From assembly GCA_012838755.1 (NCBI GenBank), contig DUOQ01000162.1:1-33780 (forward strand): 33,780 nt of DNA, given 5' to 3'. Made by a program: the position numbers and the translations under genes. Below are positions 14,911 to 22,193 of this stretch, piece after piece. Under the pieces are notes generated by a model that saw only the letters and a list, made by a program, of their open reading frames with translations, had not been told where the DNA came from and ran no database searches. Positions within the stretch are counted from its first letter, which is position 1, and every line of letters begins with the position of its first letter. This stretch comes from Propionibacterium sp. GTDB taxonomy: Bacteria > Actinomycetota > Actinomycetes > Propionibacteriales > Propionibacteriaceae.

Positions 14911-14959
14911 GCGCCTGGGACGCACCCCTGACGAGGCAGCAATTCCCCAGCACTACCCC

Positions 14960-14989
14960 TTGTAGTGCATGTACCCCGGGGGGTATCAT
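14960..14989 (+). promoter_or_regulatory. Promoter of sulfur operon with CsoR/CstR-like operator inside
   Basis: TTGTAG (14960-14965), 18-nt spacer, TATCAT (14984-14989); palindrome TACCC-CGGG-GGGTA at 14972-14985. Confidence 0.6.
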
Positions 14990-15025
14990 TTTCCTACCCG
15001 AAGAACTCGCGCCCGAGGAGCCTCG

Positions 15026-16312
15026 ATGAGGAGAATCGTCATCCTGGGTGGCGGCACGGCGGGAACGATGGTCGCGAACAAGTTGCGCGCCACCGAGCCG
15101 GCCTCCGCCCTGCAGATCACCGTCGTCGACCGCGACGACGAACACCACTACCAGCCCGGCTACCTGTTCATGCCGTTCGGCACCTACACGCGCAAGCACA
15201 TCGTGCAGCCGCGCCGTAAGTACCTGCGCCCGGGCATCAACCTCGTCCTGGCCGAGATCGAACGCGTGGACGCCGACGCCAAGGTCGTCCACCTCGCCGG
15301 CGACCGCACGCTGGAGTACGACACGCTGATCGTCGCCACCGGCGTCCAGCCCCGCCCCGACCAGACCCCGGGGGCCGAGGGGGAGGGCGTCCACCACTTC
15401 TACGACCTCGAGGCCGCCGAGCGGCTGACCGAGGGCCTGCGGATGTTCCCCGGCGGGCGCCTGGTCGTCCACATCACCGAGATGCCGATCAAGTGCCCGG
15501 TCGCGCCGCTGGAGTTCACGTTCCTGGCCGACGCGTGGTTCCGCGAGCGCGGCACCCGGCACAAGGTCGAGATCGTCTACGTCACGCCCCTCGACGGCGC
15601 TTTCACCAAGCCAGTCGCCTCGCGCGAGCTCGGTGACATGTTCGACAAGCGCGACATCAAGATGGAGACCGACTTCGCCGTCGAGAGCGTCGACACCGAG
15701 AACCAGGAGCTCGTCTCCTACGACGACCGGCGCATCCCCTATGACCTCCTGGTGTCGATCCCGCTCAACATGGGCCCCGACTACATCGCGCGCTCGGGCC
15801 TGGGTGACGAGATGAACCTCGTCCCGTGCGACCAGGGCACCATGCAGAGCCTCGCGCACCCCGACATCTTCGTCCTGGGTGACGGTGGCACGCTGCAGAC
15901 CTCCAAGGCGGGGTCGGTGGCGCACTTCGCCGTCGACATCTTCATGGAGAACTGGCCGCACTACCTCGCGGGCGAGCCGCTCACCCACCAGTTCGACGGG
16001 CACGCGAACTGCTTCATCGAGACCGGGCACGGCAAGGGCATGCTGCTCGACTTCAACTACAAGACCCAGCCGTACACGGGGTCGTTCCCGTTGCCGGGCG
16101 TCGGCCCGATGGCCCTGCTGAAGGAGAACAAGGCCAACCACCTGGCCAAGCTCGCCTTCCGCGGCGTCTACTGGGAGTTCCTCCTCAAGGGACGCCCCCT
16201 GCCGTTCACCGCCGACATGTACCTGATGGGCAAGAACATCGAGGACGAGGCGTCCGGCACGTCGACCCCCAACCTCCTCAAGGGCCTGGTCGGCCTGCGA
16301 CCCTCACACTGA
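15026..16312 (+). CDS. Sulfide:quinone oxidoreductase-like FAD-dependent oxidoreductase
   Basis: MRRIVILGGGTAGTMVANKL dinucleotide fold, PIKCPVAPLEF and NCFIE cysteines, HPDIFVLGDGG; gaggag RBS. Confidence 0.88.
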   Translation: MRRIVILGGGTAGTMVANKLRATEPASALQITVVDRDDEHHYQPGYLFMPFGTYTRKHIVQPRRKYLRPGINLVLAEIERVDADAKVVHLAGDRTLEYDTLIVATGVQPRPDQTPGAEGEGVHHFYDLEAAERLTEGLRMFPGGRLVVHITEMPIKCPVAPLEFTFLADAWFRERGTRHKVEIVYVTPLDGAFTKPVASRELGDMFDKRDIKMETDFAVESVDTENQELVSYDDRRIPYDLLVSIPLNMGPDYIARSGLGDEMNLVPCDQGTMQSLAHPDIFVLGDGGTLQTSKAGSVAHFAVDIFMENWPHYLAGEPLTHQFDGHANCFIETGHGKGMLLDFNYKTQPYTGSFPLPGVGPMALLKENKANHLAKLAFRGVYWEFLLKGRPLPFTADMYLMGKNIEDEASGTSTPNLLKGLVGLRPSH

Positions 16313-16326
16313 CAAGGAGAGACACC

Positions 16327-16644
16327 ATGCCCACCTGCCGCATCGACGGGCGTCCGATCGACGTCAACGACGAGGGCTTCCTGACGGTCTACGACCAGTG
16401 GGACGACAGCCTCGCGACGGTCCTGGCCGGGTATGCCGGCATCGAGGAGTTGACGGACGAGCACTGGAAGGTGCTCCGGTTCCTCCGGGACGACTACCCG
16501 GCCCGCAAGGAGACCGCCACCCTGCGCCGCGTCACCGCGGTCGGCGGCTTCGACATGAAGGAGCTGTTCCGGCTGTTCCCCGGGAAGCCCGCCAAGAAGA
16601 TGAGCTACATCGCCGGGCTGCCCAAGCCCAAGGGCTGCGTCTAG
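16327..16644 (+). CDS. TusE/DsrC/DsvC family sulfur relay protein
   Basis: DDEGFL-like N-terminus, WKVLRFLRDDY, C-terminal YIAGLPKPKGCV with penultimate Cys. Confidence 0.9.
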   Translation: MPTCRIDGRPIDVNDEGFLTVYDQWDDSLATVLAGYAGIEELTDEHWKVLRFLRDDYPARKETATLRRVTAVGGFDMKELFRLFPGKPAKKMSYIAGLPKPKGCV

Positions 16645-16653
16645 GAGACTGAC

Positions 16654-17295
16654 ATGACCGAGATCCTCGAAACCCCGATCATCCCCGACTTCGGCGACAC
16701 CAAGAAGCCGGACGCCGCGGGCGCGGCCCCGTCGCGCCCGGTGAGGAGCAAGTTCCAGGGCGGTGGCGAGCCGCAGCCCGCCGGCGACCAGGCCGGTGCG
16801 CCCGCCTACAGCGGGCCGCGAAAGATGGTGTTCATCGCGTCCAAGGGCAACCTGGACATGGCCTACCCGGCGCTCATCATGGCCAACGCCGCCCTCGGCG
16901 AGGGCATCGAGACCCACATCTTCTTCACCTTCTGGGGCTTCGACCTGGTCACCGAGCGGTACATGGACGACCTGAAGTTCACGATGGCCGGCAACACCGC
17001 CATGCACATGCCCCAGGCGCCGACCATGCCCCTGCCGCAGATCATGGGCGTGGTGCCGGGCATGACGAAGTTCGCCACGAACATGATGAAGAAGCAGCTC
17101 GACGACCTCGAGATCCCGTCGGTGCGGGAGATGCTCGACATCATCGTCGCGTCGGGCGGCCACCTGTGGGGCTGCAAGCTCAGCTTCGACATGAACGGGC
17201 TGGCCCGCACCGACCTCTACGACGGGGTCGAGGACGTCATCAGCGCCACCGACTTCATCGAGCTGAGCGAGGGCGCGCAGGTCATCTTCGTGTGA
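16654..17295 (+). CDS. DsrE/DsrF-like (DsrE2-type) sulfur relay protein with N-terminal low-complexity extension
   Basis: KMVFIASKGNLDMAYPALIMANAALGEGIETHIFFTFWGFDLV; GGHLWGCKLSFDM conserved Cys. Confidence 0.85.
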   Translation: MTEILETPIIPDFGDTKKPDAAGAAPSRPVRSKFQGGGEPQPAGDQAGAPAYSGPRKMVFIASKGNLDMAYPALIMANAALGEGIETHIFFTFWGFDLVTERYMDDLKFTMAGNTAMHMPQAPTMPLPQIMGVVPGMTKFATNMMKKQLDDLEIPSVREMLDIIVASGGHLWGCKLSFDMNGLARTDLYDGVEDVISATDFIELSEGAQVIFV

Positions 17296-17316: not shown

Positions 17317-18042
17317 TCAGGCGCTGTTCCCGTTCATCGCGGGGACGGACGGCTCGAGGTCGGTCGGAGCGACGGGCCGCGCCAATCCGTTGGCGTGCGC
17401 CCAACGGACCGCCTGGCTGCGGCGTTCGACCTCCATCTTGCGGTAGGCCGACCGGATGTGGGACTTCACCGAGTTGATGCTGAGGAACAGGCGGTCCGCG
17501 ATCTCGGCGTTCGTGAGGGCGTCGCTGACCAGCGCGACCACCTCGGCCTCGCGGTAGGTGAGCCCGAACGCGCGGCCGGGCCAGTCACCAGGACGCGGCT
17601 CGTCGGCCGACACCTCGTCGGTGACCTCGCCCGGCGAGGCCGCCGTGCGGGGCTGGCCGCCGCTGCCGACCTCGACCACGCGCTCGCCGGCGTGGGCACG
17701 CAGGAGGGCGTCGAGCAGTTCCTCGGCGCCCAGCGTCTTGGAGACGAACCCGTCCGCTCCGGCGTCCAGGACGCGGTTCACGTGGTTGGGGTCGGCGTCC
17801 CACGAGTAGGCCACGACCCGGCCCACGTGGGGCAGTTCGCTCAGTTGCGTGAGCCGCTCGTGGTGGGGGGAGGTGCCGAACGTGTCGTACAGCGCGACGT
17901 GGACCGGGGCCTCGGGGAGGCCGCCGGCCTCGAGCTCGATCACCCTGAAGCGGTCATCGCCGCTGAACATCTGCGCCAACCCGCGCACGACGACCTCGTA
18001 GTCGTTGACCAGCGCCACGGTGACAGAACTCACTTCCTCCAT
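17317..18042 (-). CDS. LuxR/NarL-type response regulator
   Basis: Receiver-like N-terminus (VALVNDYEVVVRGLAQM, GADGFVSKTLGAEELLDAL); C-terminal HTH LTYREAEVVALVSDALTNAEIADRLFLSINSVKSHIRSAYRKM. Confidence 0.9.
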   Translation of the reverse strand: MEEVSSVTVALVNDYEVVVRGLAQMFSGDDRFRVIELEAGGLPEAPVHVALYDTFGTSPHHERLTQLSELPHVGRVVAYSWDADPNHVNRVLDAGADGFVSKTLGAEELLDALLRAHAGERVVEVGSGGQPRTAASPGEVTDEVSADEPRPGDWPGRAFGLTYREAEVVALVSDALTNAEIADRLFLSINSVKSHIRSAYRKMEVERRSQAVRWAHANGLARPVAPTDLEPSVPAMNGNSA

Positions 18043-21699: not shown

Positions 21700-21727
21700 C
21701 TCCGCATACCCTCGGGGGTATGCGGAG
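21700..21727. promoter_or_regulatory. CsoR/RicR-like palindromic operator overlapping start codon
   Basis: ctccgcataccc-tcgg-gggtatgcggag, 12-bp perfect arms; core TACCC-N4-GGGTA identical in geometry to 14972-14985. Confidence 0.6.
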
Positions 21728-22193
21728 CCTGTCGTTGTTGCGTACCTGGCCGGCGCGCCGGTGGTGGATCGCCGTCGGCGTCGCGGTCGCCTATGTCCTC
21801 ATCGTCGGCATCTCGACCGCGATGATCGAGACCCCCGTGTTCGGCCGGGACGTCCCCACCACGTGGTGGGCTTGGCCCGCGCTCATCATCGCGGCGGCCC
21901 TCTCGGGCCTGTTGACCGCCACCTACGTGCGCGTGCCGGGAGGGACGTCCGACGCCCAGGGCGAGACCGGGACGCGCCGCGGCATGGTCGGCGCCCTGCT
22001 CACCTGGTTCGCCGTGGGCTGCCCCGTCTGCAACAAGATCGCCCTGCTCGTGCTGGGCTACGCCGGCGCGATGACGTGGTTCGCGCCCCTCCAGCCGTTC
22101 CTGTGGATGGCCGCCATCGTCGCCCTCGTCTGGGCGCTGGCCGTCCGGCTGCGCGGTGAGGTCTCCTGCGCCCTCCCCGTGGCCGCTCGCTAG
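21720..22193 (+). CDS. Small membrane protein with CPVCNK motif
   Basis: MRSLSLLRTW start; about 4 hydrophobic segments; TWFAVGCPVCNKIALLVLGYAGAMTWFAPLQPFLW. Confidence 0.8.
   Translation: MRSLSLLRTWPARRWWIAVGVAVAYVLIVGISTAMIETPVFGRDVPTTWWAWPALIIAAALSGLLTATYVRVPGGTSDAQGETGTRRGMVGALLTWFAVGCPVCNKIALLVLGYAGAMTWFAPLQPFLWMAAIVALVWALAVRLRGEVSCALPVAAR

Follow-up and report, generated by a model that had tools for sequence, protein, structure and literature searches.

A predicted CstR-type operator upstream of a sulfide:quinone oxidoreductase–TusE–DsrE2 operon in Propionibacterium sp. and the spacer length of actinobacterial CsoR-family sites

Analysis of a 33,780-nucleotide stretch of Propionibacterium sp. 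DNA, the whole of which is referred to here as the window, suggests that a three-gene operon for a sulfide:quinone oxidoreductase (SQR), a TusE-like protein and a DsrE2-like protein is very probably controlled by the persulfide-sensing repressor CstR. Judged from the sequence and its relatives, the operon carries a real, conserved CstR-type promoter and is common in actinobacteria. A trans-acting persulfide repressor would thereby be assigned to a widespread, little-described actinobacterial sulfide operon. This kind of system is already known from S. coelicolor and S. aureus. Both the set of genes under this control and a one-base rule in the operator spacer look new, and no description of the SQR-TusE-DsrE2 set in a CstR regulon was found in the open-licence literature.

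The operon, the regulator in trans and the predicted regulon

The first gene of the operon (15026–16312, plus strand) encodes a protein of 428 amino acids, which scores 580.7 bits against the NCBIfam model of type III SQR (SQR_III, NF049943, cut-off 525). Its two redox cysteines, C157 and C329, match cysteine positions in the solved SQR 8dhk and are conserved throughout an alignment of 85 sequences: C329 is present in all 85 and C157 in 83, the other two having a gap there. Family score and cysteine pair together predict the function of a type III SQR. Among family models, that of the selenoprotein subtype of type III SQR fits this protein best, although its gene has no in-frame TGA. A selenoprotein was rejected because the frame in the window has no internal stop; stops in 80 relatives are confined to the region near the C-terminus of the alignment and are most likely natural ends.

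The second gene begins after a gap of 14 nt (16327–16644, plus strand) and encodes a TusE/DsrC-like sulfur carrier of 105 amino acids, with 102.5 bits to the DsrC family PF04358 and 73.7 bits to TIGR03342 (cut-off 53.5). The family score and a penultimate cysteine (C104, CysA) in a GLPKP-x-GCV tail place it in the TusE/DsrC superfamily. This cysteine is present in 85 of 85 sequences and the tail is nearly invariant. The position of CysB is occupied by Ser or Ala in all 85 and never by Cys, so the CysB-X10-CysA pair of DsrC proper is absent and that assignment was rejected. The third gene follows after 9 nt (16654–17295, plus strand) and encodes a sulfur carrier of 213 amino acids. It scores 104 bits against DrsE_2 (PF13686), well over the Pfam cut-off, and 107.6 bits against the curated model NF047629, under the cut-off of 210, and for this reason is called only DsrE2-like here. 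Its C174 is found in all 82 sequences having a residue at that position; a second cysteine, frequent in other sequences, is replaced by Ala in the Propioniciclava group and in a number of further ones. Solved structures similar to this protein are the DsrE-like 2qs7 and 3pnx. Pfam and NCBIfam bear out the three genes of the preliminary description. A LuxR/GerE-type response regulator, whose receiver-domain match is below the Pfam cut-off, is encoded convergently with the operon (window positions 17317–18042, minus strand).

A scan of named genomes with the TusE alignment gave at least 593 matches, and the best 80 of these, nearly all from Actinomycetota, were examined. SQR precedes TusE in 80 of these 80 loci and DsrE2 is also present in 78.

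A regulator acting in trans had been supposed, and a search for CsoR, CstR and RicR homologues had been proposed. Two CsoR-family genes are present in the source genome (332 contigs). One of them (contig C204) encodes a RicR/CsoR-like protein of the copper type, with 144.2 bits to the RicR model and Cys-His-Cys copper ligands; after this gene comes a CopZ-like reading frame (named from sequence). The other (contig C265) encodes a CstR-type paralogue with Cys-Ala-Cys at the three key positions, which is the CstR pattern of two cysteines without a His ligand. Where proteins of the CsoR class typically have Tyr and Glu, those of the CstR class mostly have Asp and Lys. Upstream of this cstR gene lies TACCCCGGGGGGTA, identical to the predicted CstR-type operator TACCC-N4-GGGTA at positions 14972–14985 of the window, so that the expected regulator has the same operator at its own promoter. 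In another genome (G008, 72% complete) the SQR site is present and a CstR-type gene was not found.

When TACCC-Nk-GGGTA was counted in the source genome, 14 sites had a spacer of four (N4), one had a spacer of five (N5) and none had N2, N3 or N6; the reversed-pattern control, with all five spacers pooled, gave 8 matches. The N4 sites lie upstream of the SQR operon, cstR, a rhodanese/persulfide dioxygenase (PDO) locus, a CoA-disulfide reductase (CoADR)-rhodanese fusion gene, a thioredoxin gene and a second SQR gene. The sequence is identical at cstR, the SQR operon, thioredoxin and CoADR, and variants occur at PDO/rhodanese and the second SQR. On contig C142 the site is located between divergent genes for a rhodanese and a PDO-rhodanese, with a TauE protein after the latter; the name persulfide dioxygenase is given from the metallo-hydrolase/rhodanese fusion and similarity, not from a curated cut-off. 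The second SQR-like enzyme (contig C257) is close to solved SQRs such as 3sx6.

Several side observations were made at these sites. The second SQR gene stands behind tandem operator-like sites (L019, C257, position 7089), one strict N4 and one degenerate, and is followed by a small ORF of 57–60 amino acids with no NCBIfam match. A DASS-family anion transporter (L013, C3, 7866–9281) directly follows the thioredoxin gene and is a candidate exporter or importer of oxidised sulfur. Some N4 sites precede genes without a clear sulfur role (alpha/beta hydrolase, ABC transporter). The alpha/beta hydrolase gene adjoins a ClpB-like gene and has tandem N4 sites upstream (L014, C78, 1113 and 1150), and it might be an unrecognised CstR target. 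A TusA gene elsewhere in the genome has no N4 site, and its neighbours are a YeeE/YedE-like reading frame and a cysteine-synthase-like gene (both named from sequence only).

Taken as a regulon, this set has its operator upstream of the regulator gene itself as well as of its targets; the targets comprise persulfide dioxygenase, rhodanese, a sulfite exporter and SQR, and the CsoR-family regulator on C265 has two reactive cysteines and no His ligand. The earlier reading that no regulator, dioxygenase, rhodanese or TusA lies in the window agrees with the sequence around the operon; all of these are elsewhere in the genome. What was concluded from it, a compact or unusual version, does not hold: PDO, rhodaneses, a TauE-type exporter, thioredoxin and cstR stand at other places in the genome behind this operator, and the SQR-TusE-DsrE2 arrangement is widespread in actinobacteria.

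It is conceivable, if unlikely, that CstR regulates the operon while TusE and DsrE2 serve biosynthesis (tRNA thiolation, cofactors) or sulfane-sulfur signalling and not a detoxification relay. The TusE-like protein has just the terminal cysteine of the DsrC pair, and dsrA has no match in the genome, on which ground a Dsr-type pathway was rejected; the oxidative role known for DsrC as acceptor from DsrEFH (PMC3397948) would thus be unavailable here. However, the presence of SQR in the operon at every one of the best 80 of at least 593 loci, together with a control shared with dioxygenase and rhodaneses, points to sulfide and persulfide handling.

Spacer length and the choice between copper and persulfide

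We classified 125 distinct CsoR-family genes, from 118 class-wide genomes and relatives, by three key residues and counted the pattern [AT]ACCC-Nk-GGGT[AT] (k = 2 to 8) up to 400 bp upstream. All 33 sites at the 51 CstR-type genes are N4, and 51 of the 52 sites at the 70 CsoR-type genes are N5, the remaining one being N4. The strict site is absent from 22 CstR-type and 26 CsoR-type genes. Association of spacer with gene type gives a Fisher P of 8e-23, for genes that are not fully independent, their genomes being related, and 0 of 20,000 permutations of the gene labels matched the observed agreement of 84/85. Target genes follow the same division, with 14 of 14 sites N5 and no N4 at copper-ATPase loci, and 23 N4 and one N5 at persulfide-dioxygenase loci, in a test which is only partly independent as some of these loci include the regulator gene. 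Three CsoR-family proteins (L180, L182 and L184) have Cys-His-His and not Cys-His-Cys; one has an N5 site, one an N4 site and one none.

Published operators fit this spacer code. ScCsoR of S. coelicolor, a sensor of sulfane sulfur (sensing cysteines Cys37 and Cys66), binds ATACC-N6-GGTAT, which equals N4 in our notation, and is released by polysulfide (PMC7533328). The copper CsoR of S. lividans binds ATATACCCCTNAGGGGTATAT, an N5 site (PMC3902906). It is likely, on these counts, that Actinomycetes insulate the copper and persulfide regulons of paralogous repressors by one base pair of spacer, and that the spacer alone predicts the inducer. No description of an N4/N5 rule was found in the open-licence literature, a search in which subscription papers on CstR may be missing. 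Such a rule would provide a simple sequence test separating persulfide from copper control for two paralogous repressors. With it, both regulons could be mapped in any actinobacterial genome in a form open to direct testing.

The site in the window is N4 and therefore argues for CstR control; the N5 spacing of copper CsoR/RicR regulons is not found there. The preliminary description had called the repressor persulfide- or copper-responsive. The persulfide half is retained, since N4 goes with CstR-type genes, and the copper half is dropped, since N5 goes with CsoR. Control of the operon by the copper repressor CsoR (C204), which would tie copper stress to sulfide removal, is highly improbable. 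The half-sites are the same and csoR in the source genome itself carries one N4 site, but copper CsoR genes across the class and copper-ATPase loci have N5 in the proportions given above, the sole N5 site of the source genome precedes its copper P-type ATPase gene, and every conserved SQR site except one is N4. Copper control was rejected on these spacer statistics. At the C204 csoR promoter the N4 site lies beside an N5-type site, which makes it the sole such copper csoR promoter, and some cross-talk between copper CsoR and CstR is possible.

Promoter, operator and their conservation

A putative promoter, TTGTAG-N18-TATCAT (14960–14989, plus strand), was read from the sequence in front of SQR. 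The earlier placing of its elements proved correct, with TTGTAG at 14960–14965, TATCAT at 14984–14989 and a spacer of 18, and so did that of the palindrome, TACCCCGGGGGGTA, overlapping the -10. In the closest relatives the -35 element and the TAT from the -10 recur at an unchanged distance from the operator.

In eight orthologous operons from a first set the operator is located 24–58 bp upstream of the SQR start, the half-sites being kept and the central four bases variable. Among the best 80 of at least 593 loci, 26 of the 78 readable promoters have an N4 site and one has N5, and of the 33 N4 sites counted across the whole 598 kb, 26 are at SQR promoters. Nearly all Propionibacteriaceae operons have the N4 site. 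The strict site is missing from most distant orthologous operons, including Streptomyces-like ones; those genomes that were checked do have CstR-type genes. Control may have changed in these distant operons, or the site may be degenerate there. The conservation of TACCC-N4-GGGTA expected upstream of orthologous operons is thus borne out in part, and does not extend to most of the distant ones.

Shuffles of the window give an expectation of 0 matches to TACCC-N4-GGGTA. One other match is present in the window, at 21707, inside a perfect 12-bp hairpin (21700–21728) just past the end (21680) of an ExeM/NucH-like nuclease ORF. We rejected this site as a second operator, as it belongs to a longer hairpin after the nuclease gene and resembles a terminator stem. 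The least credible reading of the operon's own palindrome makes it no more than an intrinsic terminator for the gene upstream, as a pattern scan flagging 14971–14986 as terminator-like and the similar 14-mer in the nuclease hairpin might suggest. This reading was rejected on conservation and position: SQR promoters of many genera keep the half-sites at exactly N4 spacing, in some loci as far as the SQR start codon, and cstR and other sulfur genes have the identical site upstream.

A second dyad, CACTAC-N5-GTAGTG (14951–14967), which includes the -35, had also been described. It is present in the sequence but lacks the conservation of an operator: of the orthologous promoters, only those of the two closest relatives (L039 and L207) have a related dyad, and there the TTGTAG part is what looks kept. 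By this comparison the second dyad is probably not an operator.

Proposed mechanism and comparison with known systems

In the mechanism that we propose, reduced CstR (C265) would bind TACCC-N4-GGGTA over the -10 and block RNA polymerase. On a buildup of persulfide or polysulfide the two CstR cysteines would react and the repressor would leave the DNA. We infer both the binding and the derepression by persulfide from knowledge of the family and from the experiments in S. coelicolor. Together with the operon, cstR, rhodanese/PDO-TauE, CoA-disulfide reductase-rhodanese, thioredoxin and the second SQR would be derepressed. SQR would convert sulfide to sulfane sulfur and pass the electrons to quinone, and C174 of the DsrE2-like protein and C104 of the TusE-like protein might accept and carry the sulfane sulfur as protein persulfides. 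The carried sulfur could then go to disposal by dioxygenase and rhodanese (with an exporter) or to biosynthesis. This relay step, with its order and destination, is the weakest part of the explanation, and we hold it to be about evenly poised between right and wrong.

Among known systems, the DsrEFH-DsrC relay of Allochromatium vinosum (PMC3397948) is similar in having a DsrE-type protein beside a DsrC/TusE-type acceptor; it differs from the present case, in which there is no dsrA match, a single DsrE2 in place of DsrEFH and a carrier without CysB. TTHA1953 of Thermus thermophilus is likewise a CsoR-family repressor of sulfur oxidation that acts in trans on distant genes, but it recognises TACNNTACNNNNGTANNGTA and controls Sox genes (PMC10318464). 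The copper CsoR of S. lividans shares half-sites and regulator family and differs in its N5 spacer, Cys-His-Cys copper ligands and copZA targets (PMC3902906). In S. aureus (CstR) and Bacillus licheniformis (YrkD), a CstR-like repressor controls SQR, PDO, rhodanese, DsrE-like and TusA carriers and TauE (PMC9918477). In Bacillus a single cluster holds these genes, with DsrE/TusA as carriers, whereas here the carriers are DsrE2 and TusE and the regulator is on another contig. The ScCsoR circuit of S. coelicolor (PMC7533328) likewise has a CstR-type CsoR paralogue, an operator equal to N4, control of PDO, rhodanese and TauE, and an operator at the regulator's own gene. The targets described there are PDO-tauE, rhodanese and the regulator, whereas the regulon predicted here is scattered and adds SQR-TusE-DsrE2, CoADR-rhodanese, thioredoxin and a second SQR.
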